The notes beneath the pieces were generated by a model that saw only the letters and a list, made by a program, of their open reading frames with translations, was not told where the DNA came from and searched no databases. Both the position numbers and the translations under genes were made by a program. From a virus, in IMG/VR virus record IMGVR_UViG_3300044729_002597, positions 1 to 47,974 of that record: a stretch of 47,974 nt of DNA. The stretch is one strand, 5' to 3'. Of this stretch, positions 16,576-34,623 are shown one piece after another (positions within the stretch are counted from its first letter, which is position 1; each line of letters opens with the position of its first letter).

Positions 16576-19500
16576 TCAACGAATCCGCGCCATGGTCTGC
16601 TGCAGCTTCAGGCCAGATCCATCGCCTCGCACACTGACCCCCACGTTCCACGCTTTACGCCTCAGCTCAGCTACCTCCTGGCTCAGGTTTCCAACCGCCG
16701 CCGCCAGATGGGCCATTGCCGGATCGGATCCCACCCGCATCACGCCAGCGCCACCACCCAGGGCCCCGGACTCCTTTAGTCGGCTGGTCACGGCAGCAGG
16801 GATGACCGTGCCCTTCGATGGCGCCATCCAGAGGCTGTTTGCGGGTCGGTTGATCAGGCTCAGCGCCCCGGATGCCGACAAGAACGATTCCTGCCCCAGG
16901 CTCATCCCGCTCGGGCCGTCATTGATGCGGTAGGTCTGGCCGGCATCCACCGGGCCACCCGTGAACCGTGCAGGGGGTAGGCCGGCGGCGGCGTTCAGGC
17001 TGTTGTAGAACGACCTGGCCGCATCGGCAGCATTGCTCATGTTGCTGGCAAGTCCAGCGGTTTGACTTCTGGCGGCACCCGTAGCCTTGGCGGCACCGTC
17101 GATGAAGCCGCTGATTTCGAAGTAGCCCTTGCCGGTGTTCTTGACCTCCAGCCCCGTGTCCCTGACCAGCCCCTGGAAGGTTTTTTGCTGGTCCAGATTG
17201 AGGTACAGCAAGTCCTGAAAGCTGTTGAACTGGTCCCTAGTGCCCTTAGTGGCCTGAAAGGTGCCATCGGCAAACAGCGCTAGGTTCTTGGCGGCAGCTT
17301 CGGCCTTAATCTGGTTTTGCGCGGTTTCGTTGGTAACGCCAGCAATCAGCGACTCGATGGCCTGGGTCTTGCTGAGGATCTGGAGCTTGGAGTCAGCGGA
17401 TTGCGTGCCAAGCTCAGCAATTCTCAGCGCGAGTTCGGCTTGCTGGATGGCTTGTGCATTGCTTGACAGCGAGGCCTGTTCGAGTCCTAGCTTTGCTTTC
17501 TCTACTTCTAGCCTTGCCGAGTCTGACGCAAGCCCAGCATCTAGCCTGGCTTGTTCTTGCTGCAAGGCAAGTATCTGCCTTTGTAGGTCCTGCTGTGCTA
17601 GTAAAGCGTTAAACTTAAAAGTTAAAGCGGCTCGATCAATCTCGTCTCCTTGTTGCCTGATTGCATTGATTTCACCCTCACTTGCACCACGCTTTTGCGC
17701 TTCTTGTAGTTCATAGTTATTGCGATTGCGGATAATACTGAAACGCGAATCCTCTAGTCCTATAAGCGCTTGGCCAAGGTTGATACCGGCCTGCTGAACT
17801 TCTGCGCGACCGGCATTTTCGGCCTGAAGTGTCCTGCCAACTGCTTCCGCTAACTGAGCTTGACTTGCTAATTCTTTGACTTTTTCTTCGTTTTGCTTCT
17901 TTGCAATCGCGAGTCGCTGAGATTCGGCAGCGACGGCAGCATTGGTTTCGCCTAGTATGTCGCGCTGTTTGCTGGCAAAATCTTTGGCTAGGTCGCCAAT
18001 CTCTGTTTGAACCTGAGCAAACCGATTACCCCCTAAGTTCAGTTCACCAAACCAATCACGACTGGCCCCAGTGTTTGCAATAGCGTCACTTAGCAGGTTC
18101 TTGGCTTGCTGGTCGCTAAGTCCGTATTCCTTGGTGATGTTTTTTAGGATGCCAACAAGCTGGGTTGCTTCATCGGCCGTTACGCCAAATGACTGACGCA
18201 AGTCTCTTGCCGATACGTCAACCTTTAACCCTTCCAGCGCCCCGGCCAGTTTTACTACCTGCTGCGTAACCGTTGGCAGTAGGCTCGTTCCGAAGCTGTC
18301 CTGCAGATCTTCCCAGGCGTTTTGCAGCTTGGCAAAGTTCTGTGCTGCGGTAAGTGTTCCGCCAGCATTAGCAGTCAGATCATTTAATCCTTTGGTGATT
18401 GCTGGGAAAAACTCAGCCGATGTGAGCTTGCCAGTTTCCACCAGCTTAATCAGCGCCTGCTGGCTAATGCCTAGACCATTGGCGGTCGCAGCTAGAGCGA
18501 TTGGCAGCCTTTCCCCAAGCTGTTGGCGTAGCTCTTCCATAGAGACCACTCCCTTTGAGGCAATTTGCTGCAGCGCCACAAAGGTTCCGTTGATTCCATC
18601 ATTGGTCAACCCCAATACTTGGCCGGCCTTTGCTACTGACGCAAACAGATCTTTCTGCTGCTGCAGTGGCACGCCGGAAGCTGTTGCTGCTGCGGTAAAA
18701 CTGCCGAAGGTACTAGACAGGCTTCTGTAAGACAACCCCAACGCATCGGCGGTTTCACGAGCGAAGCTGAGAGCCCCAGCAGCCCCCTGGGCGCCAAGGG
18801 TGGCGGAGAGCTTGCGGGTGGTCGTTTCAAGCTCTGCCGCTCCCTGAATGGATCCCTTCAGAAACCCAACCACCGAATAGGTAACCCCAACAAAGCCCAG
18901 TGCATTCAAGGCGTTGCCAAGCACACCAACCGCTACGCTAGTTTTGCCAAGAGCTTGATCAACTTGTAGCTGTGTGCGTGCAATTTCCGACTGTGTTTCC
19001 TTGAATGCCCGTGATCCAATCGCTGTTTTGTCTAAGGCTTGGTTTAGCTCCGACAAGCGATTGCGTAGCCCGCTAATTGTTTGCTCTTTACCGCTGAATC
19101 CATTTAACGCATTATTGATTTCTCTTTGTGTTGTCGCGATTCCTTTTTGTGCCGCGACAAACTCCCTGGAACCAATTTCTGCTTTTTGCAAAGCGCTATT
19201 ATACTGGGCTAGTTTATTATTTAACCCTTCAATGCTGTTTTGACTGCCAGTAAACCCTTTTAGTGCTGCATTGAGCCTGTCTTGAGTTTGAGCAATTTCT
19301 CTTTGTGCCGCCACAAACTCTTTAGAGCTAATCTCAGCTTTTTGCAATACTCCGTTAAGTTCGGTTAGTTTATTGTTTAACCCTTCAATACTATTTTGGC
19401 TTCCGCTGAATCCTTTTAGCGCCGCATTTAACCTTTCCTGGGTTTGAGTGATTTCCTTTTGTGTTGCGACAAATTCTTTCGACCCAACCACGCTTTGGCC

Positions 19501-20145
19501 TAGGGTTTCATTAAGGGCCGATATTTTACTGCGCAACCCGTTGATCGTGTTTTCGCTTGCGCTAAATCCTTTCAATGCATCATTTACTTGCTTTTGCGTT
19601 GCTGCAATTCCCCTTTGTGCCGCCACAAAGTCTTTAGAGCCAATTTCAGCTTTTTGCAGTATGCTATTGTACTCGGCTAGCCTGTTGTTTAACCCTTCAA
19701 TGCTGTTTTGATTGCCGCCAAATCCCTTTATCGCTGCGTTTAACTTGTCTTGAGTTTGGGCGATTTCTTTTTGCGCTGCTACAAACTCCTTGGAACCAAT
19801 TACGCTTTGGCCTAGGGTTTCGTTCAGCGCCGCCATCTTGTTGCGCAGCCCGGTAATAGTCGCCTCCCCTGCAGCAACCCCCTTTAGCGCATTGTTGATT
19901 TCCTGCTGTGTTTTGGCGATTTCTTTTTGCGCAGCCGCAAACTCCTTTGATCCGATAGCCGCTTTGTTTAGGGACTGGGTTAACTCATTCAGCCGGCCAC
20001 GCAGCCCTTCGATCGTCTGGTCGCTGCCGGCGAATCCCTGCTTGAACTGCTCCCCCGCCTGCTTGCCTTGCTGCCCGATTTGCCGCGACGCATCGAGTAC
20101 CCCCTTGACATCGGCCGTTACCTTGACAACCCACTCGTTTGCCAT
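16576..20145 (-). CDS. Tail tape measure protein (1189 aa)
   Basis: The N-terminal 45-408 region consists of seven 52-residue repeats (core IGSKEFVAAQKEIAQTQ). A tape-measure domain follows (about 415-620: LGAQGAAGALSFARETADAL, MEELRQQLGERLPIAL, KTGKLTSAEFF-like end), then long coiled coil (about 690-960) and a C-terminal region with basic and Gly-rich parts. Such proteins set tail length and pass into the host during DNA entry. Length and position before the tail tip genes fit. The start lies one base after the stop of the upstream gene. Confidence 0.88.
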   Translation of the reverse strand: MANEWVVKVTADVKGVLDASRQIGQQGKQAGEQFKQGFAGSDQTIEGLRGRLNELTQSLNKAAIGSKEFAAAQKEIAKTQQEINNALKGVAAGEATITGLRNKMAALNETLGQSVIGSKEFVAAQKEIAQTQDKLNAAIKGFGGNQNSIEGLNNRLAEYNSILQKAEIGSKDFVAAQRGIAATQKQVNDALKGFSASENTINGLRSKISALNETLGQSVVGSKEFVATQKEITQTQERLNAALKGFSGSQNSIEGLNNKLTELNGVLQKAEISSKEFVAAQREIAQTQDRLNAALKGFTGSQNSIEGLNNKLAQYNSALQKAEIGSREFVAAQKGIATTQREINNALNGFSGKEQTISGLRNRLSELNQALDKTAIGSRAFKETQSEIARTQLQVDQALGKTSVAVGVLGNALNALGFVGVTYSVVGFLKGSIQGAAELETTTRKLSATLGAQGAAGALSFARETADALGLSYRSLSSTFGSFTAAATASGVPLQQQKDLFASVAKAGQVLGLTNDGINGTFVALQQIASKGVVSMEELRQQLGERLPIALAATANGLGISQQALIKLVETGKLTSAEFFPAITKGLNDLTANAGGTLTAAQNFAKLQNAWEDLQDSFGTSLLPTVTQQVVKLAGALEGLKVDVSARDLRQSFGVTADEATQLVGILKNITKEYGLSDQQAKNLLSDAIANTGASRDWFGELNLGGNRFAQVQTEIGDLAKDFASKQRDILGETNAAVAAESQRLAIAKKQNEEKVKELASQAQLAEAVGRTLQAENAGRAEVQQAGINLGQALIGLEDSRFSIIRNRNNYELQEAQKRGASEGEINAIRQQGDEIDRAALTFKFNALLAQQDLQRQILALQQEQARLDAGLASDSARLEVEKAKLGLEQASLSSNAQAIQQAELALRIAELGTQSADSKLQILSKTQAIESLIAGVTNETAQNQIKAEAAAKNLALFADGTFQATKGTRDQFNSFQDLLYLNLDQQKTFQGLVRDTGLEVKNTGKGYFEISGFIDGAAKATGAARSQTAGLASNMSNAADAARSFYNSLNAAAGLPPARFTGGPVDAGQTYRINDGPSGMSLGQESFLSASGALSLINRPANSLWMAPSKGTVIPAAVTSRLKESGALGGGAGVMRVGSDPAMAHLAAAVGNLSQEVAELRRKAWNVGVSVRGDGSGLKLQQTMARIR
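18922..20013 (-). repeat. Seven 156-bp tandem repeats in tape measure gene
   Basis: Seven successive 52-residue units begin IEGL, ITGL, IEGL, INGL, IEGL, IEGL and ISGL, and each carries (I/V)(G/S)S(K/R)xF near its middle. Units 2 and 4 share ALNETLGQSV, while units 3, 5 and 6 share LQKAEI, implying duplication of a two-unit block (104 residues) after the first expansion. Confidence 0.85.
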
Positions 20146-20146
20146 G

Positions 20147-20593
20147 TCAGCTTCCTGGGGTGACGACGTACTGGGTGGGGTTGGTCCAGCTCAGGGCGTA
20201 CTGATCGAGCACCCCGATACCACGGCCTGGGGGATCGCCACCGATCGGCACCGCACGGCAGCCGGGGAGCAGGCCGATGATCCGCTGCGTGAGCAACTGC
20301 AGGGCCGTGAAGTCACCCGCTGGCGACCACTCGGACACGTAAAGCCGGAACTGCGGATTGAGCGCCGTTTCACCCGTGGCGAATGCTTCGGTGGCGTAGT
20401 CGGGGTTGGCGAGGATCACCACTTCCAGGCCAGCCACGGCCACCCCCTCGGGCAGGGCTTCATTGCGCCGCACTACTGCGATGGCGGGGATGGTGGTGCC
20501 GCTGCGGGGGGTGTAGGTGCCCAGTGCTGCGCTGACCACGGCATCGGCCGCTAGCAGGTCGTATAGCTCCTGTGCAGTGGTGGGCAGGGTCAT
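20147..20593 (-). CDS. Hypothetical minor tail protein (148 aa)
   Basis: A compact alpha/beta protein (LYDLLAADAVVSAALGTY, then YVSEWSPAGDFTALQLLTQRI) located just before the tape measure gene and separated from it by one base. Its size and position resemble tail completion or terminator proteins, but those normally precede the tube gene, so I leave it as hypothetical. GGGAAAGCT lies 6 nt before the ATG and may double as its ribosome site. Confidence 0.55.
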   Translation of the reverse strand: MTLPTTAQELYDLLAADAVVSAALGTYTPRSGTTIPAIAVVRRNEALPEGVAVAGLEVVILANPDYATEAFATGETALNPQFRLYVSEWSPAGDFTALQLLTQRIIGLLPGCRAVPIGGDPPGRGIGVLDQYALSWTNPTQYVVTPGS

Positions 20594-20598
20594 GCTGC

Positions 20599-20680
20599 AG
20601 CTTTCCCAACAGGCTGGGGCGGGCGGCTTGCTGGGCGGGTGGCGCTGCCCTTGGCGAACGGCTTAGGGATGGGGTATGAT
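20599..20680. promoter_or_regulatory. Divergent promoter region
   Basis: The 184-base spacer between the minus-strand 148-aa gene and the plus-strand cassette holds a GGAAAGCT element (20599-20606, minus), a GGCTTA element (20660-20665) and a plausible plus-strand promoter: TTGGCG (20651-20656), an 18-base spacer, TATGAT (20675-20680). A GGGGT-TGC-ACCCC hairpin follows in the plus-strand leader. Confidence 0.55.
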
Positions 20681-20777
20681 CCGATCATGCGGAACAAGCG
20701 GGGTTGCACCCCCGCCCGCTCCTGGCCAATGGCCGGGCCTAATAACCCATCACCCGGCTTGCCGCCGGTATTGTCCC

Positions 20778-21596
20778 ATGAATTTCCTCAGCCAGGTCCC
20801 GCAGAGCGCAGTGGTGACCATTACGCCAGCTATTGCGAAAGAACTGTTAGCGACCAGCCCAGGTAACAGAACAATTCGCTCCCATTACGTCAAGCTTCTC
20901 GCGGTTGCCATGAAACGCGGAGACTGGTTGGTAACCAGCCAGGGAGTTGGCATAGACAATCAAGGCAGGTTGAGAGACGCACATCACAGGCTGAACGCTT
21001 GCGTCCTTGCTGACACGCCTTTTGAAACCACTGTTGTATGGGGTCTACCACAAGATGCCTATCAAGTTACGGATAGGGGTATTTCACGTAGCTATCACGA
21101 TATTCTTGATTGCGCCAAGCCCGTAGCTGAAGTGCTTCGACTTGCTGGGCAGATAATTACCGGAAGCAGCCGGCCAACGCGACGCGAAATTGATCCGTTA
21201 ATAAATGCGGGATTAAAAGACATGGTAGAAGCGCTAATTCAGTACTGTCCTTCAAAGGTTGCCTATTTTAGCTCTGCATCTTTCAAGCTATGCGCTGTAG
21301 TGCAAATCATCAATAACACTGATACTGATTTTGTTTACTCTCAGTATCGGGCCTTGGTATCTGCAAATTACGATGAAATGACCGCCGCTTCTAAAGCCTT
21401 GACTCGTCAGGTAACGACCGGAAATGGCTTGCATACTCATCACAGACAAGATGTTTATGCGCGTGCGCTGGTTGTCTTTAATCCTAGTAAGGCCAGTGTC
21501 AGCAAGATTCAAGTTGACACTGATCGTCGAATCTCTTCATCTGAGTACGTAAAAGAGAGCCTGCTTAGGTTTGTTGCTTTAAGTGAAGCGCTATGA
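20778..21596 (+). CDS. ParB/Srx-like fold protein (272 aa)
   Basis: Residues about 10-90 follow a pattern shared by a broad family of phage and mobile-element proteins with a ParB/sulfiredoxin-like fold: ITPAIAKELLATSPGNRTI, AVAMKRGDWL, then IDNQGRLRDAHHRLNACV where relatives have NGQHRL, and DRGISRSYHDIL. The family's biochemical role is unknown; DNA or nucleotide binding is assumed from the fold. The rest is helical. ATG 20778 is used; the frame is open upstream but crosses the promoter. It is the first gene of a four-gene, 4-nt-overlap plus-strand cassette with AT-richer DNA. Confidence 0.6.
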   Translation: MNFLSQVPQSAVVTITPAIAKELLATSPGNRTIRSHYVKLLAVAMKRGDWLVTSQGVGIDNQGRLRDAHHRLNACVLADTPFETTVVWGLPQDAYQVTDRGISRSYHDILDCAKPVAEVLRLAGQIITGSSRPTRREIDPLINAGLKDMVEALIQYCPSKVAYFSSASFKLCAVVQIINNTDTDFVYSQYRALVSANYDEMTAASKALTRQVTTGNGLHTHHRQDVYARALVVFNPSKASVSKIQVDTDRRISSSEYVKESLLRFVALSEAL

Positions 21597-21769
21597 GCAT
21601 CCGCAAAGACGGTCGTTGCATGATTCAGCTCACCATGGCGCCAGACCTTTACGCAGCCGTGCGTGAGCATTGCAAGCGACAGGACACACCGGTAACGGTA
21701 TGGGCGCGGGAGCTGATCCGCCAAGCCCTTTCCACTGATTCAACACCACCACCCCCAACCACACCATGA
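21593..21769 (+). CDS. Ribbon-helix-helix DNA-binding protein (58 aa)
   Basis: A short beta strand (RCMIQLTMAPDLY) is followed by two helices (AAVREHCKRQ and TVWARELIRQAL), the classic Arc/MetJ/CopG arrangement, with a proline-rich tail. It probably dimerises and represses its own cassette. It overlaps both neighbours as ATGA, so it is tightly coupled to the ParB-like protein and the next gene. Confidence 0.65.
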   Translation: MSIRKDGRCMIQLTMAPDLYAAVREHCKRQDTPVTVWARELIRQALSTDSTPPPPTTP

Positions 21770-22095
21770 GCAAAGACAAGGATTCACATGACAGCATAAA
21801 TTTTCCGCATAAAGAAAGAAAACGCGCTGAACGAATTGCGGCATTACTGAAGCTTAGTGATTGGCCACATGCTTTTGGTATTGGGCTTCATTTGGCCGAG
21901 CAACACGCTGAAGCCAGCGCCAGAGGCAAAACAGCAGTAGCTTTTTGCGCGCCCAAGTTAACGGAATTGTTAGAAAACAACCCTGAATTCATCGCAGCCC
22001 TTTGCGAGGAAGGCGTAGTAGAATGGCTGACGCCGTTCGTCTTGGCTAAATCCAAGCAAAGCAACCACCCCACCCCTGACACCACCCAACCATGA
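21766..22095 (+). CDS. Hypothetical protein (109 aa)
   Basis: The N-terminus is charged and lysine-rich (HKERKRAERIAALLK) and the rest is helical with a C-terminal Lys/Ser/Pro tail. No family was recognised. It is the third gene of the ParB-like/RHH cassette and is joined by ATGA overlaps on both sides. Confidence 0.6.
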   Translation: MSKDKDSHDSINFPHKERKRAERIAALLKLSDWPHAFGIGLHLAEQHAEASARGKTAVAFCAPKLTELLENNPEFIAALCEEGVVEWLTPFVLAKSKQSNHPTPDTTQP

Positions 22096-22436
22096 AACGC
22101 CTACTCGCTTTCCTGTTTTCCAGCCGCTGGCGTGGTGCCGCAGCCTTAGTAGAAGTACAAAAACTGCGTGACCTCTGTGCCGCAGTTTATCAAGTTTGCG
22201 GCGCTCTTGATGCGCCGGCAGACGTGCTTGATGCGTTGTCTGATGCCAGCGCAGGAAGTTATACGGGAGATCCGTTGTCCCTGCTGCCTTGTCCGCTGTC
22301 TGAAGCATGGCTATTCAAGAACAAAGAGGCCCACGCTTCTGTCATGCGCGGCCTAGGGCAAGCGCAACGGGGAGAGTTTGTCGATCCGCCAGACCTTGAC
22401 GAAGGCGAAAGGCTTGCGGCGATGATTCCCGATTAA
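22092..22436 (+). CDS. Hypothetical protein (114 aa)
   Basis: A hydrophobic-basic N-terminus (KRLLAFLFSSRWRGAAALVE) could insert in a membrane or be a helix. The rest is acidic and helical. No family was recognised. It is the last gene of the plus-strand cassette and converges on a minus-strand terminator at 22458-22481. Confidence 0.55.
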   Translation: MKRLLAFLFSSRWRGAAALVEVQKLRDLCAAVYQVCGALDAPADVLDALSDASAGSYTGDPLSLLPCPLSEAWLFKNKEAHASVMRGLGQAQRGEFVDPPDLDEGERLAAMIPD

Positions 22437-22672: not shown

Positions 22673-23506
22673 TCAGAGCAGTTCAAGCCCCGGCTTGCCG
22701 TAGCCAGCCAAGCTCACCTGATACTTGAGCACCGTGCCGGCGGCCTGCTCCGGCTGGTAGGACTCGAACATGCCATACCCATACTCCACCTGGTTGCCGT
22801 TGTAAGGGCCGATCAAGGCGTACTGGATCATCAACTTCTCGGATAGGTTCAGCTCTTCGCATAGCCGCATGGCACGCCACGCAGAAGCAGCAAAGGATGT
22901 GACCCCAGATAGCGCCCATGTCTTGTCCTTGGCGGTCGGGATCGGCGTGGCGTAACCACCCGCTTCCTCATCGTAGGTGGTGACGGATTCTTTGGTGGTG
23001 GCGTTGGCTGGCTGGGCATTGGTCAGCCCCATCAGCCGGAACGGGGGATCGGTGCCATCAAGCAGCAGCGAGGGGGCCACTACACCAGCGGCAACGGCGG
23101 CCGTGGTGATCGCAGAACCAGTCAGGGCGTAGGAGAGGGTGTGCGGGCTTGTGGTGGTCACCGATGTCACCACAAACGAACCGTTCAGACTGGCGAACGG
23201 GGCGGGGAGATCTTTGACAACGATCCTCCGGCCTACTGCAATGCCGTGGGCAGCGTCGAAGGTCAGGGTTGCGAGAGAGGTAGTGGTGACGGCATTCGTA
23301 ATCGCATGGGCGCCAACGCCAAAGGCGAAAGTATCACCCGTGCCAGCAGTGATAATCTTGGCAGTCGCGTTTTGCAGAGTGGCGTTGTTGATAAACTTGC
23401 CGGCGCCAAGCCCGCCAAGGTTGATGCGGGTCAGGTCAGCCGCCGAAGACTTGATTGGGGTAAAAAAGAACCGGTAGCCAAAACTCTGCTGCCATTCCGT
23501 AGACAT
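22673..23506 (-). CDS. Major tail (tube) protein (277 aa)
   Basis: Placed just after the tail chaperones in transcription order, the protein has an N-terminus typical of tube subunits (FGYRFFFTPIKSSAADLTRI), a central beta insertion (FDAAHGIAVGRRIVVKD, LNGSFVVTSVTTTSPHTLSY) and a C-terminal part with KTWALSGVTSFAASAW and QVEYGYGMFESYQPEQAAG. It would stack in rings to form the tail tube. The inserted module resembles Ig-like domains often grafted onto tube proteins. Confidence 0.65.
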   Translation of the reverse strand: MSTEWQQSFGYRFFFTPIKSSAADLTRINLGGLGAGKFINNATLQNATAKIITAGTGDTFAFGVGAHAITNAVTTTSLATLTFDAAHGIAVGRRIVVKDLPAPFASLNGSFVVTSVTTTSPHTLSYALTGSAITTAAVAAGVVAPSLLLDGTDPPFRLMGLTNAQPANATTKESVTTYDEEAGGYATPIPTAKDKTWALSGVTSFAASAWRAMRLCEELNLSEKLMIQYALIGPYNGNQVEYGYGMFESYQPEQAAGTVLKYQVSLAGYGKPGLELL

Positions 23507-23593: not shown

Positions 23594-23857
23594 ATGGCCT
23601 CCTATCCTCGCGGCGTCAGCCACTGCCCTCATAACAACCATCGCCCGTATCAGGCTCGGGTGTGGTGGGATGGTCGCCGTTGGTCGCTTGGCTACTTCCC
23701 GTCAATCCAGGCGGCAGCGCAGGAGGTTGAGGCGTGCTACCAGCAGATTGAGCGATGGGCAGCCATGCTCCTGCCGCCGCCCATGCTGGCGTCACAGCAT
23801 CGGGAGCGTCTGGCACAAGCAAGCTCACCACCCGCTGCGGATCCCCCGCCATCCTGA
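23594..23857 (+). CDS. AP2-like DNA-binding protein candidate (87 aa), antisense to chaperone tail
   Basis: Residues 18-50 (YQARVWWDGRRWSLGYFPSI then QAAAQEVEACY) follow the AP2/ERF DNA-binding pattern: three beta strands with Trp and Gly, then an amphipathic helix. Such small domains occur in phage and HNH proteins. It lies on the opposite strand of the last 80 codons of the frameshifted chaperone, a Pro-rich part of low constraint. The upstream paired GGCTTA element and GGAAAGCT support expression. Both strands may be coding, or the T C-terminus may simply be an accident of this gene. Confidence 0.5.
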   Translation: MASYPRGVSHCPHNNHRPYQARVWWDGRRWSLGYFPSIQAAAQEVEACYQQIERWAAMLLPPPMLASQHRERLAQASSPPAADPPPS

Positions 23858-24946
23858 AGGTGCGCACCTGGCCGGCGGCCGTATCTTCAGCCAGCAGCAA
23901 CCCCCGCCAGCCGTCCTGCTGCTCAGCTGGGGCCAGTAACAGAGCATCATCTGCCAGCAGGGCCAGCAGAGTGGGTGGGGTTATTCCCTCTCCGGCGGTA
24001 GCAAGGGCATCGTAGAAGGCCATCGCAAACCCTGGAACCTGCTGGGCCTCGCATAGGGCAAGCATCGCCGCACCAGCTTCTGCCGGCGGGCCCTGTGGTG
24101 CATCGCCAGCCGCAGTCGGCGGCAAGTGCCAGCAGAAGTCCTCCATGTTGAACGGCTCGCTGCGCTTATCGGTGTCCCGGTGTGCGCTGGCGTACCAGGC
24201 GTGAAAATTAGCGATCGGCCGTTCTGCCGCGTGCTGCCGTTCCCTCAGTATTCGGGTGCCTGTTTCGATTGCTTCCCAGACGACCGTTTCGGGGCAGTAG
24301 GCGAATCGCTCACAGGAGAAGAATTGATGGTTGGGCCAGAGGTCGTTGACCCTCCAGAAGATTGCGCCCCAGTCGGTTGGGGCAGGTCGGGCTTTCCCAG
24401 GTTTTCGGCCATTGCTTGCAAGTCGGGCGCTTCCTGATCTTTGCCCCCGCGTTGCTCTCTCAGCATAAAGTTGTAGATGGCATCTCGCAGCCCTTCGGTC
24501 ATCTTCAGGGTTTCATCATCGGTCCAGTTGGCGCAGTCAGGATCTACTTCCCCCAGTCGGTAACGGATTGCAGCAGTAACCATCCGCGTGACCCTTGCCT
24601 GAAATTTTGCGGTTTGGCACTTTTCAATTTCATGGATCAACCGGTGCTCGCGCTTGCGAATCATGGTTTCCAGTGGCTCCAGCACCACGGGAATGCCGTT
24701 GTGCGCGGACATCACCCGTAGTGCGACAAGATTGGCGGTCGGCTCGGGCAGGTTGTCCATGTGCTGGATGACCTGAGCCAAGCGCTGCAACTGGTCGGTC
24801 AGCGTGGACTGGTCTTCGATCTCTTCCATCAGCAAGCGCTCCCCGACCAGCAGAGCATGGAAGACAGGGAATTGCAGGATGCCCGTGGTTGCGTCCCCCA
24901 CGTCCTGGACCTGGACATCTAGCGCGGTGACAAACGGTAGGGGCAC
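23616..24946 (-). CDS. Tail assembly chaperone, GT-type frameshift fusion (443 aa)
   Basis: This is the full-length product if ribosomes slip -1 at GGGAAAG (24398-24392). The first 185 codons are shared with the short chaperone; reading then continues in the -1 frame for 258 codons to 23616. The shifted part begins ARPAPTDWGAIFWRVNDLWP and contains HRDTDKRSEPFNMEDFCW, matching the R(D)xxKRxxPFxxEDF signature of phage T-type tail chaperones. The C-terminal 80 residues are Pro/Ala-rich. G and GT proteins guide tube polymerisation around the tape measure in siphoviruses. The -1 segment lacks a good start of its own near 24392, so fusion is its likely expression route. Confidence 0.82.
24245..24946 (-). 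CDS. Tail assembly chaperone, G-type short form (233 aa)
   Basis: The zero-frame product starts with GTG at 24946 (PLPFVTALDVQVQDVG). It is helical to about residue 165 (EPLETMIRKREHRLIHEIEK), and after the slippery site ends in a Ser/Thr/Pro-rich low-complexity tail, as expected if the last 50 codons are mainly constrained by the overlapping -1 frame. It lies upstream of the tail tube gene rather than between tube and tape measure, a mild departure from the usual order. Confidence 0.75.
   Translation of the reverse strand: MPLPFVTALDVQVQDVGDATTGILQFPVFHALLVGERLLMEEIEDQSTLTDQLQRLAQVIQHMDNLPEPTANLVALRVMSAHNGIPVVLEPLETMIRKREHRLIHEIEKCQTAKFQARVTRMVTAAIRYRLGEVDPDCANWTDDETLKMTEGLRDAIYNFMLREQRGGKDQEAPDLQAMAENLGKPDLPQPTGAQSSGGSTTSGPTINSSPVSDSPTAPKRSSGKQSKQAPEY
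24366..24398 (-). promoter_or_regulatory. Programmed -1 ribosomal frameshift signal (GGGAAAG plus hairpin)
   Basis: The heptamer G GGA AAG (24398-24392) is in the correct zero-frame phase (Leu-Gly-Lys) and is the same heptamer used by phage lambda gene G-T. Eight bases downstream a GCCCC (24383-24379) / GGGGC (24370-24366) hairpin with an 8-base loop is well placed to stall the ribosome. The frame reached by slippage is open for 258 codons. Confidence 0.85.
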
Positions 24947-25099: not shown

Positions 25100-25732
25100 A
25101 TGACCGACTTTCGTGCCTTGTGCCAAGAACTTGCTTCACTGATTCAGACCTACCCACCCACCGATACTGCCTACTGGGCTGGTCGGAAATCGGGAATACT
25201 GCAACGCGCCCGAGCCGCCCTGGACGAGCCGGAAGGGGAGGGGCCGGACCATGCAAGCCTGATCGCCTTTGCCTATGGCCGGGAGCCTTGGGCAACCTGG
25301 CTGAAGATTGGTGGCTGCCTGGAATCAGCTCATTGTGAACTGAGTGATTTGATGACGGACGTTCTTGCCCGTTGGGGCCGGCCTGCCGCGTCAGCACCGA
25401 GTGAAGCGGCATGGGCCCTGGCACAGCTGCTAGACGGCGTTCAGCGGCACGACCTGCAAAGCATGACAGGGCTTTCTGATCGTGATTGCGACCGGATCTG
25501 GGCCGCTTTGGACGAGCCGGAGATGGAGGGGCCGAGTGATCAGGAACTAGAGAGGTTCCTGGCTGATCGACACAGAGCGCGAATGGAGAGTGAATCGGCT
25601 TTTGGTTGTCCCGATTTTGACGGAGCCAAGGCCAGGGCTGCTCGGATTGCCGATGCCCACGCCGTTCTTGCCCGCTGGGGCAACTCTGCAGCCCCCGCGC
25701 CGAAGCCCATCCCGGTGAGCGAACGGCCGTAA
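25100..25732 (+). CDS. Modular hypothetical cassette protein, possibly truncated (210 aa)
   Basis: Two copies of a module are visible: an ALDEPE(G/M)EGP(D/S) box (residues about 41-50 and 135-144), each followed some 50 residues later by VLARWG. I recognise such boxes from cyanobacterial and cyanophage proteins of unknown function. The protein stops at TAA (25730-25732), yet the same frame stays open for 61 more codons with a Cys/Trp-rich domain that normally closes proteins of this type. The gene may be broken, or the stop may be read through. Confidence 0.6.
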   Translation: MTDFRALCQELASLIQTYPPTDTAYWAGRKSGILQRARAALDEPEGEGPDHASLIAFAYGREPWATWLKIGGCLESAHCELSDLMTDVLARWGRPAASAPSEAAWALAQLLDGVQRHDLQSMTGLSDRDCDRIWAALDEPEMEGPSDQELERFLADRHRARMESESAFGCPDFDGAKARAARIADAHAVLARWGNSAAPAPKPIPVSERP

Positions 25733-25918
25733 GAGCGGGACGGGTGGCGTGACACTCAAGGTCGCTGCTGGTTTTGTTATGCCTGCTCCATAGGTAGATG
25801 GAACTATCAACTCCCGCCTGACCCTGAGCAGGACTGGGGAATGTTAGGGACCGAGGCCCATTGCCTCCCGCACTGGGCCATTGCGCGACCTCAGTCAGGG
25901 GCGAAAAAATCCACCTAG
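25733..25918 (+). pseudogene. In-frame continuation beyond TAA: Cys/Trp-rich C-terminal module
   Basis: Directly after the TAA the same frame reads ERDGWRDTQGRCWFCY and ends near AHCLPHWAIARPQSGA. GRCW and the LPHWAI box are typical of the C-terminal module attached to EPEGEGP-type proteins. It has no start codon of its own before residue 35. Its TAG stop at 25916-25918 shares CTAG with the stop of the gp10-like tail gene, the same convergent arrangement as at 1145-1148, which suggests that the original gene ended here. Confidence 0.6.
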
Positions 25919-26355
25919 CCCCGCGCTACCGCCACCTGTATCCGTTGCTGCAGCCGCTGCCCCAGTGGATAGACGGGGATCCCTGGAGCTTGCACCGCGC
26001 CACTCACCGCATCTGTCCAGGGCCTGGCGGGCAGGATGGTGCCGTTGCGCAGGCGGGCACCTTCATGCACGGCAGTGGCGTAGCCGGCGCTCCAACGGGC
26101 CTCCAAGGTGTAGGGACCAATAAAGCTGTAGGTCCCGCTTTGTCGCAGGGAGCCGGTGTCAACGATGTTGCGCGGGCTGCCGACCACTCCGACCCGGCGC
26201 CGTGTTTCCCGTGGCCAGTTCCACGCCGCAGGGTTGAAGCTGGCCTGATACCGGCCGAACAGTTCGATCAGGGTATTGCGGGCAATCTCCTGCAGCATCC
26301 GATCCATTTCCCCAGGCCCAGGGCCTGTGACCGTGGTTTCAACGCGGATGGACAT
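25915..26355 (-). CDS. HK97 gp10-like tail/connector protein (146 aa)
   Basis: The segment NIVDTGSLRQSGTYSF followed by YATAVHEGARLRNGTILPAR and PWTDAV is the typical core of the HK97 gp10-like family, which acts at the head-tail junction or as a tail completion factor. Its place between connector-like proteins and the tail chaperones agrees. It ends in the shared CTAG. Confidence 0.75.
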   Translation of the reverse strand: MSIRVETTVTGPGPGEMDRMLQEIARNTLIELFGRYQASFNPAAWNWPRETRRRVGVVGSPRNIVDTGSLRQSGTYSFIGPYTLEARWSAGYATAVHEGARLRNGTILPARPWTDAVSGAVQAPGIPVYPLGQRLQQRIQVAVARG

Positions 26356-31795: not shown

Positions 31796-32740
31796 TTAGC
31801 GGCGACCCTTTCGACCTTTTATGACTCGTTTTCTTGCGTTTTCCAGATTTGCCTCTGCCCTATTTCGATTACTTCCTGAAAGACCGGTCATTATACCAAT
31901 CGGCCGGCGTACAACTGCAGGGCTTAGTCCTATAGCTTTTCCTACTGCTCTTTGACGGTTGTAGATAGCGTTTGCAGCACTGCGAACCACGGCGCTTCTT
32001 GCGTTCAGCTTGTTACTTAAATAGGTTGAGTTCTTCGGGGCAAGGGCACGCTGCCTTCTGTCTTTAACAGCGTTCATGCTTGTATCAACCTTCTTCACCG
32101 GCTTAGCTGCTACAGCCCTCGCTTTCACCCTCGCCGTCACCGCCCCTTGCTTCAACCCCTTGGGCTTGGCCACGGTGCCCCTTGATGCCGCACCTTTCAC
32201 CGCCGCACGATTCCGCTCCTTGCTGGCCTTCAGGTAAGTACCAGCCCGCGTGACCGCCCCACGCTGGGCTGGTGATGCCCCAGGACCCGCCTTCGCCCTG
32301 GCACGCCTGAGGCTGGCCCGTGCCGCCAGCGTCCCCCCAGTGCTAAGCGGTTCTGCGCTCTTACCAGGCTTGATGCGGCCAAGCATCTGCCGCTGAATTG
32401 CCATCGTTTGCTGCCGTTGCTGCCGCGCCTTGCCACGCTTGCCGGCGCCTTCGTTCATTTTCTGGCCCGATAACCGAGCACGGGAAACACCGCCAACCTT
32501 GGGCGCCTTGATTCTGGAGCCTGGGGCCTGAGTCGGCTTGACGGTAGCGGCAGGTTTGGCCGATCCCCTCGCCTTACCACCCTTTCCCACGGTGCCAGCC
32601 CTAGGCGCTGCCGTCATCTGACTGGTCTGCGTCGCTCGCTTGTTCCCGGTTGCGGTACGCAGCCTGCCGCCCCGCGCAGTAGCTCCGGTGCCACTACTGG
32701 CAAACCTGCCACGGTTATCCCTGGAGTATTTCCTGGCCAT
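31796..32740 (-). CDS. Highly basic head-region protein, paralogue 1 (314 aa)
   Basis: Extremely rich in Arg, Lys, Ala and Gly, with hardly any acidic residues. The first 39 residues (RKYSRDNRGRFASSGTGATA then GGRLRT) are nearly identical to those of the neighbouring gene at 32773-33495, while the rest differs. The RDxxGRFA opening recurs in phage head-region proteins. A DNA-binding or capsid-internal role is likely by charge. The stop lies 3 nt before the Mu-F-like gene start. Confidence 0.55.
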   Translation of the reverse strand: MARKYSRDNRGRFASSGTGATARGGRLRTATGNKRATQTSQMTAAPRAGTVGKGGKARGSAKPAATVKPTQAPGSRIKAPKVGGVSRARLSGQKMNEGAGKRGKARQQRQQTMAIQRQMLGRIKPGKSAEPLSTGGTLAARASLRRARAKAGPGASPAQRGAVTRAGTYLKASKERNRAAVKGAASRGTVAKPKGLKQGAVTARVKARAVAAKPVKKVDTSMNAVKDRRQRALAPKNSTYLSNKLNARSAVVRSAANAIYNRQRAVGKAIGLSPAVVRRPIGIMTGLSGSNRNRAEANLENARKRVIKGRKGRR

Positions 32741-32772: not shown

Positions 32773-33495
32773 TCAACCTTTCTTGTTGCGACGCCCTTTC
32801 TTTGGTGCCCCAACAGTGTTTCGTGGCCCTGGGCGCAGATTGTTCTTCCCTCTTGACGGTTTACCAGGCCCCGTAAATGCCAGCTGGTTGCCATAGGTCA
32901 CACGGGCTCTGGCCGCAGGCTTGCTACCCTTTTCTGCTGCCGCTGTAGCTCGCTCCATGCGACGCCGAATCGCCTTGGCGCCATATCTGCTGCCGATTGT
33001 TCCCATTTCAGCTTGAGATATTAGGCGATCGGTTGGGTCCTTGGAGAATCGATTGATAATTGATTTTGCATTGCTGCGCTCAAAGCTTCGACGCGCTTTA
33101 TCAAGCTTAGGTTGTACCTTTTTTATTCTATCATTAAAGCTGGTAATAGAATTTGTGACATCTTTAAGCGAGGTATCTATTCTTCTGTCAATCTGCTTAA
33201 ATTTTGCCTTTGTGGTAGCTGCATTATATGGCTTGATATTGTTTGATGGTGACTTTTTCGCTCTGCTTAAAGGTCGGACATTATTCCTTGCGTTGATAGG
33301 TTTTGGGGATGCAACGACCTGGCGAGCCTTGCCGCTTTTTCCTACGGTGCCATCCATAGGCGTCCGCGCTATTTTCTTGGTCTGCGTGGCCCGCTTGCCG
33401 CCGCTTGCGGTCCGCAGCCGTCCCCCGCGTGCCGTCGCTCCGGTGCCGGCGCTGGCAAACCGTCCGGCATTATCCCTGGAGTATTTCCGTGCCAC
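32773..33495 (-). CDS. Highly basic head-region protein, paralogue 2 (240 aa)
   Basis: It shares the N-terminal RKYSRDNAGRFASAGTGATA and GGRLRT block with paralogue 1, then diverges into a Lys/Asn/Ser-rich AT-rich middle with helical content (DVTNSITSFNDRIKKVQPKL) and a basic end (GAPKKGRRNKKG). The GTG start sits one base after a terminator-like T-tract, with no ribosome site, so its translation start is unusual. Duplication of the N-terminus with replacement of the body is the simplest history. Confidence 0.55.
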   Translation of the reverse strand: MARKYSRDNAGRFASAGTGATARGGRLRTASGGKRATQTKKIARTPMDGTVGKSGKARQVVASPKPINARNNVRPLSRAKKSPSNNIKPYNAATTKAKFKQIDRRIDTSLKDVTNSITSFNDRIKKVQPKLDKARRSFERSNAKSIINRFSKDPTDRLISQAEMGTIGSRYGAKAIRRRMERATAAAEKGSKPAARARVTYGNQLAFTGPGKPSRGKNNLRPGPRNTVGAPKKGRRNKKG

Positions 33496-34598: not shown

Positions 34599-34623
34599 GG
34601 CGGGAAAGCGAAGGTGGATTGTT

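Follow-up and report, generated by a model that had tools for sequence, protein, structure and literature searches.

A putative lambda-type programmed -1 frameshift in probable tail chaperone genes of a family of mainly uncultured siphoviruses

On the minus strand of a viral DNA of 47,974 nucleotides (IMG/VR record IMGVR_UViG_3300044729_002597, positions 1 to 47,974; this whole stretch is called the window below) two reading frames overlap around the heptamer GGGAAAG. The locus raises the question of whether the two frames are separate genes or whether they jointly encode a tail assembly chaperone made in a short and a frameshifted long form. The original prediction, made from the letters of the sequence alone, was of a frameshift in tail chaperone genes, and it is supported by the comparisons described here. 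The best explanation of the sequence is a programmed -1 ribosomal frameshift of the lambda (G/GT) type at G GGA AAG, to which we assign a probability of about 0.93.

The slippery site and its two reading frames

The putative G-type chaperone gene occupies the zero frame at 24245..24946 (-), from a GTG codon at 24946, which aligns with the ATG of its relatives, to the stop at 24245, and codes for 233 aa. As predicted, the slippery heptamer GGGAAAG (24392..24398, -; read from 24398 to 24392) lies in the right phase near the 3' end of this short gene, the codons CTG GGA AAG conforming to the X XXY YYZ pattern. The AAG of the heptamer is codon 185 of G, and the zero frame continues past the heptamer for 48 codons and a stop (24245..24391, -), overlapping T. 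The constraint on the protein encoded by this tail is weak, and its length is nearly constant among close relatives. The T-type segment, which would be reached by the shift, lies in the -1 frame at 23616..24392 (-) and comprises 258 codons followed by a stop (23616-23618). The openness of the -1 frame over 258 codons is thus as anticipated, but its beginning exactly at the heptamer is not, since in the window the frame is also open over 40 codons upstream, a stretch devoid of a start codon. An upstream opening of this kind is found in 16 of 70 close contigs; the remaining 54 have an upstream stop 4 to 14 codons away. The first ATG, GTG or TTG codon of the T frame is the ATG at 24146, 82 codons in, in line with the expectation that no start would be found until well inside. 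A conventional ORF call therefore gives a T of 176 aa (23616..24146, -) and loses 82 residues, close to the 80 or so foreseen for an annotation of separate ORFs, and the predicted 443 aa of the G-T fusion is the sum of 185 and 258.

The heptamer by itself is not rare in this DNA, GGGAAAG occurring 9 times in the window versus 7.8 expected. In 53 greedily chosen ORFs of the window there are 45 in-phase XXXYYYZ sites, of which the one described here opens onto a -1 frame of 258 codons, well ahead of the next longest, of 99 and 76 codons. What stands out from chance is the combination of an in-phase heptamer and a long -1 frame, not the heptamer alone. The 99-codon frame belongs to a second in-phase GGGAAAG (34602-34608, +), located in a plus-strand ORF of doubtful reality.

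According to the proposed mechanism, most ribosomes would continue to the G stop and give a G protein of 233 aa. With tRNA-Gly and tRNA-Lys placed over GGA AAG, a minority would slip one base back to GGG AAA, enter the T frame and produce a G-T fusion of 443 aa. By analogy with lambda, the tape measure protein would be coated by G and the major tail protein recruited through the T moiety of the fusion, and neither G nor G-T would stay in the virion; these roles of lambda G and G-T are described in the available part of the review PMC5009743. The slippage itself, its frequency and the chaperone role are what we infer from the sequence comparisons.

The lambda record carries G GGA AAG in phase, as the original prediction stated, and the likeness extends to the position of the identical heptamer near the 3' end of G, the -1 overlap and the location in a tail module. 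The two systems differ in the length of T, 258 aa here versus 144 in lambda, and in the extension of G past the heptamer, which is 48 codons here and fits within 18 nt, stop included, in lambda. The same kind of recoding event is described for an HK97-like tail chaperone cluster, likened here by its description and not by sequence comparison; the available part of PMC3711429 gives a measured efficiency of 7% for it.

Three phages with GenBank genomes, P-SS2, S-CBS2 and S-CRES3, whose T proteins are 33%, 33% and 29% identical to that of the window, resemble it in having an in-phase GGGAAAG or AAAAAAG and T in the -1 frame. In S-CBS2 the heptamer is AAAAAAG and the G stop follows it directly, in S-CRES3 it is GGGAAAG with the G stop one codon on, and in P-SS2 it is GGGAAAG with the G stop 117 nt on and the tape measure gene about 18 kb downstream. 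In all three, G and T are annotated separately despite the in-phase heptamer linking them (P-SS2, GQ334450, 34537-35765; S-CBS2, GU936714, 9251-10413; S-CRES3, OQ587941, 36772-37913). A literature search, outside which the main papers on such frameshifts lay, returned no paper on this frameshift in cyanosiphoviruses, and neither "frameshift" nor "chaperone" is present in the texts of PMC2784084 and PMC6157547.

The tail module and the probable role of the products

Upstream of G lies a conserved gene (25915..26355, -), possibly coding for a head-tail connector, whose product matches phrog_37577 (function unassigned; E 4.4e-9) and reaches only E 0.33 with phrog_5 Neck1. Directly 3' of T is the gene of a probable major tail protein (22673..23506, -; phrog_38654, tail protein, E 3.4e-25), which has a 35% identical match inside an S-CRES3 CDS annotated as "major tail protein". 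The tape measure gene is at 16576..20145 (-; phrog_2335, tail length tape measure, E 3.2e-42). Just before it there is a conserved tail-module gene (20147..20593, -), terminator-like by position only. It is matched in 50 loci, with some contigs entering twice and S-CBS2, P-SS2 and S-CRES3 among them, and has no family match in the PHROG and Pfam searches. The G-T pair thus belongs to the tail module, adjoining the probable major tail gene and preceding the tape measure gene. It lies outside the usual place of chaperone genes between the major tail and tape measure genes, a place taken here as non-defining. Unlike in lambda, with the order V-G-T-H, the pair is located upstream of the major tail gene. 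The major tail gene is downstream of T in 73 of the 74 loci containing both (some contigs counted twice); the one miss is L001, because it is the opposite-strand copy of the window and must fail the test as written.

This gene order is one of the points in favour of the alternative that the frameshift is real and G/GT is not a tail chaperone but a two-form factor with another role in the tail or the head-tail region, lambda G-T being placed before the tape measure gene. A second point is that T carries an additional conserved C-terminal part, lambda T being of 144 aa, and a third is that no family of known chaperone function is credibly matched by G of the window, or matched by its T. For window T there is no match in Pfam or NCBIfam, and it is most similar to PHROG 34388 (function unassigned; E 1.6e-27), reaching only E 0.1 with phrog_5297 ("tail protein"), a family matched by 10 of 25 aligned T proteins (best E 0.0072). 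G of the window also lacks a Pfam match and does not reach the cut-off of PF06894 (Phage_TAC_2, the family of lambda G, which itself scores 206.9 bits); among 24 G proteins the best match to a chaperone family is that of one member to phrog_37198, "tape measure protein chaperone", at E 0.26. Profile searches against solved structures returned nothing for T and three matches for G, the best at E 0.056 and none credible, and the AlphaFold models, with mean pLDDT of 42.8 for G and 44.3 for T, both below 45, are too poor to use. Homology of the window proteins to lambda G or T is thus not seen with Pfam, nor does the T profile match that of lambda-like T proteins in hhalign (probability 0.6%).

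The original prediction considered the -1 segment, with the residues HRDTDKRSEPFNMEDF, typical of T-type chaperones and proposed a profile search against their families. The likeness is borne out only weakly, and in a homologue: T of P-SS2 matches Pfam Phage_tail_T (PF06223) at E 6.4e-4 and 20.5 bits, under the curated cut-off of 25.9 bits, over a stretch which includes the counterpart of HRDTDKRSEPFNMEDF, while for window T the search gave nothing, so that a lack of similarity to tail chaperones is but weakly excluded. T of S-CRES3 gives E 0.17 and 12.7 bits with the same family, T of S-CBS2 no match, and lambda T 54.1 bits. At E <= 1 the Phage_tail_T search also matches in 6 of 14 control genomes, and unrelated Pfam matches arise too, with 8 of 25 T proteins hitting one such family (best E 0.019). 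Since the cut-offs of Phage_tail_T and Phage_TAC_2 are not reached, the window pair is not placed in either family.

Against a role other than that of a chaperone speak the lambda G-T architecture, matched down to the heptamer, the weak Phage_tail_T matches in P-SS2 and S-CRES3, and the gene content of L046, the one relative examined in this respect, where the ORFs of at least 50 aa between the major tail and tape measure genes comprise the terminator-like gene and short ORFs, with no second chaperone candidate. Moreover, G and T are not among the listed virion proteins of P-SS2: in the available part of PMC2784084, ORFs 063 and 066 are detected in the particle proteome, and the table lists neither ORF 064 nor ORF 065, identified by coordinates as G and T. 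Such absence is as expected of chaperones, with the reservations that small or rare proteins can be missed and that it concerns P-SS2 only. In the S-CBS2 record G and T are labelled hypothetical and most of their near neighbours structural. Taken with the place in the tail module, these points make a chaperone role likely for G/T and a different tail or head-tail factor improbable.

Several other features of the region deserve mention. The tape measure gene (16576-20145, -) contains tandem units of 156 nt (52 aa), with repeats at 19139-19800. Among the contigs caught by the ELETTTRKLS pattern, the part of the protein N-terminal to this motif is 437 aa long in the window, 333 in L022 and 125 in L010 and L069; the differences from 125 aa are exact multiples of 52 (6 and 4 units), which suggests that tail length may vary naturally. 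Plus-strand ORFs at 20676-22436 and 25100-25732 lie within the minus-strand tail module and occur in only some of the relatives: compared with T, found in 84 loci (window and repeated contigs included), 20676-21596 is found in 11, 21766-22095 in 21, 22092-22436 in 5, and 25100-25732 in 31. The first of these ORFs matches phrog_5931 (function unassigned). Two neighbouring ORFs elsewhere in the window, 31796-32740 and 32773-33495 (-), have near-identical starts, MARKYSRDN-GRFAS-GTGATARGGRLRTA, and are apparently a tandem duplication.

Conservation of the heptamer and selection on the T frame

Relatives were searched in IMG/VR by peptide patterns of the T segment, with the heptamer not included, which gave 71 loci; further scans added more distant ones. 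One further scan for distant relatives contributed 80 of its 93 relatives. Counting each contig once by name, the set comprises 98 records: 94 IMG/VR contigs, P-SS2, S-CBS2, S-CRES3 and the window. Left out were L069 and L084, which do not span the site, L001 as a copy of the window, L182 as the same genome as S-CBS2, and also L076-L083 and the loci of that further scan which repeat contigs already counted. A scan of genome contigs with T of the window yielded no relatives and hence neither a host genome nor a prophage, and a viral-contig scan with P-SS2 T likewise yielded no relative. The host is likely a cyanobacterium, as Synechococcus or Prochlorococcus are the hosts of the closest named relatives. 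One relative, L006 (IMGVR_UViG_3300044642_000803), is a contig of 66,886 bases whose proteins around the site are 100% identical to those of the window; it may represent the same virus in a longer form.

The heptamer and the open frame are kept in relatives, as the original prediction required. T is at -1 to G in all 80 loci containing both parts (window and P-SS2 included; eight are second copies of contigs), and 79 of these have an in-phase GGGAAAG. Among the matches listed, 97 of the 98 records carry an in-phase heptamer, GGGAAAG in 81 and AAAAAAG in 16; counted by distinct 250-nt context it is present in 66 of 67 (53 and 13, respectively). In 72-nt stretches of these contexts the XXXYYYZ pattern occurs 67 times in phase versus 2 and 10 times in the other two phases, one of the 67 being an additional CCCTTTG in S-CRES3. 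The sole record with neither heptamer in phase is L017 (2888-2894), whose GGGGAAG changes the Gly codon silently and reflects either natural mutation or faulty assembly.

Codon usage at the site was analysed in 46 distinct sequences with complete G, a set excluding P-SS2, S-CBS2, S-CRES3 and the distant contigs. G codons 183-185 are CTG in 46 of 46, GGA in 45 of 46 and AAG in 46 of 46. It is mainly GGA that is telling, because AAG and CTG already predominate among the upstream codons for Lys and Leu (78.8% and 57.2%, respectively), while GGA makes up 4.5% of the upstream Gly codons of G. Of the conserved upstream columns, 1 of 63 with at least fourfold degeneracy, and 10 of 92 with any degeneracy, reach 97% of one codon. 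The near fixation of a rare codon, set against this variety, therefore indicates that the DNA letters are kept and not the protein alone.

The protein encoded by the overlapping -1 frame is conserved from about the heptamer on, with no conserved start codon. In the 39 of the 46 sequences with 144-nt spacing, pN/pS between the G stop and the first T ATG is 0.22 in the T frame versus 1.75 and 2.37 in the other two frames, i.e., T is under purifying selection before its first ATG. Within the G/T overlap the T frame, with pN/pS of 0.46 versus 0.90 for the G frame, is the more constrained one; pN/pS of the last 60 G codons was not used, indels being possible in that stretch.

These data bear on the possibility that T is a separate gene starting internally, at ATG 24146 or at a non-standard start, with the heptamer as a relic. 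Such a start is available in the window, and in GenBank T of S-CBS2, P-SS2 and S-CRES3 is a separate CDS whose start lies past the heptamer. Certain distant relatives even have a start codon close to the heptamer or before it: a possible T-frame start precedes the heptamer in S-CRES3, L095 and L097 and follows it by one codon in L093, and for this reason separate initiation of T is less excluded in the clade of these four. However, purifying selection acts on the conserved residues ahead of ATG 24146, the position of the first start codon varies among close relatives, from 14 to 108 codons past the heptamer, GGA is fixed at the synonymous level, and a relic would not stay in phase in 97 of 98 records. 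An independent internal start is thus very unlikely as an explanation of T.

It is scarcely credible that the fusion is made by transcriptional rather than ribosomal slippage. RNA polymerase does slip on long A or T runs, in the available part of PMC3711429 on those longer than 7 and 8, respectively, but the runs of GGGAAAG are of only three bases and that of AAAAAAG of six A, and the codon phase is kept, which such slippage would presumably not require. Single-base indels are common in homopolymers, but an assembly or sequencing indel within one gene has a negligible chance of being the cause of the frame break, since it is refuted by the relatives, which show the identical break in 80 of 80 loci, in many assemblies, in three cultured genomes and with two different heptamers.

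The sequence 3' of the heptamer and the position of the G stop

The original prediction also pointed to a GC hairpin 8 bases downstream of the heptamer. A GC-rich hairpin, UGCCCCA/UGGGGCG, is present at this place (24365..24384, -), with a stem of 6 bp (24383-24378 / 24371-24366) 8 nt past the heptamer, or of 7 bp at 7 nt if a U-G pair is counted. Its function as an element is unsupported, its stability being no better than the T protein predicts. Compared with dinucleotide shuffles the window hairpin has a z of -1.40, 15 of 200 shuffles being equally stable; with synonymous shuffles keeping the T protein, the mean z over 33 distinct sequences is +0.30 and none has p < 0.05. In the covariation alignment (42 of the 46 distinct sequences) the window stem has standard pairs in 87.7% of cells, above its slid versions, and no two-sided (compensatory) change was found in either of two stem registers. 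The change of GCCCC to GCUCC was considered as compensatory and rejected, as the register changes instead. Folds 3' of the heptamer are not clearly above shuffles in the three cultured relatives (z of 0.06, 0.75 and -0.82; lambda -1.83). The hairpin as a frameshift stimulator is thus unsupported by both shuffles and covariation.

The position of the G stop divides the family. A midpoint-rooted FastTree tree of T proteins was built for 33 hand-picked records of the 98, comprising some close relatives and the distant ones minus three near-identical copies. In the first clade (16 sequences: the window, P-SS2, L179, L180 and close relatives) the G stop lies 117 to 402 nt past the heptamer, while in the second (17 sequences: S-CBS2, S-CRES3 and IMG/VR contigs) it abuts the heptamer in 14 and is one codon on in 3. 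The longest distance is that of L028 (4995-5406), with the G stop 402 nt past the heptamer instead of 144 and, as a result, a G of 322 aa. GGGAAAG and AAAAAAG are each found in both clades, with the phase kept. Because both types occur in each clade, the heptamer was replaced at least twice with the shift kept, in a tree with low support, down to 0.095, at several inner nodes. The gene order, the natural swaps of the heptamer and the stop-abutting form in the sister clade are the unusual features of this system.

A joint reading of these data, which we regard as tentative and rather doubtful, is that no conserved RNA structure on the 3' side would be involved in setting the G:GT ratio of the family: it would be set in the window clade by nothing but the heptamer, after which the zero frame continues as a long tail under weak constraint, and in the clade of S-CBS2 and S-CRES3 by a stop directly 3' of the heptamer, with termination set against slippage. 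Together with the move of the pair upstream of the major tail gene, this might define a distinct architectural class of frameshifted tail chaperone.

The programmed -1 frameshift at G GGA AAG, the reading preferred here, extends a classic recoding event, long known from lambda, to a siphovirus family that is mainly uncultured and probably infects cyanobacteria. Three cyanophage genomes in GenBank carry the same arrangement under separate-gene annotation. With its swaps between GGGAAAG and AAAAAAG, and with the G stop placed in two different ways, the family offers ready-made comparisons for what sets the chaperone ratio.
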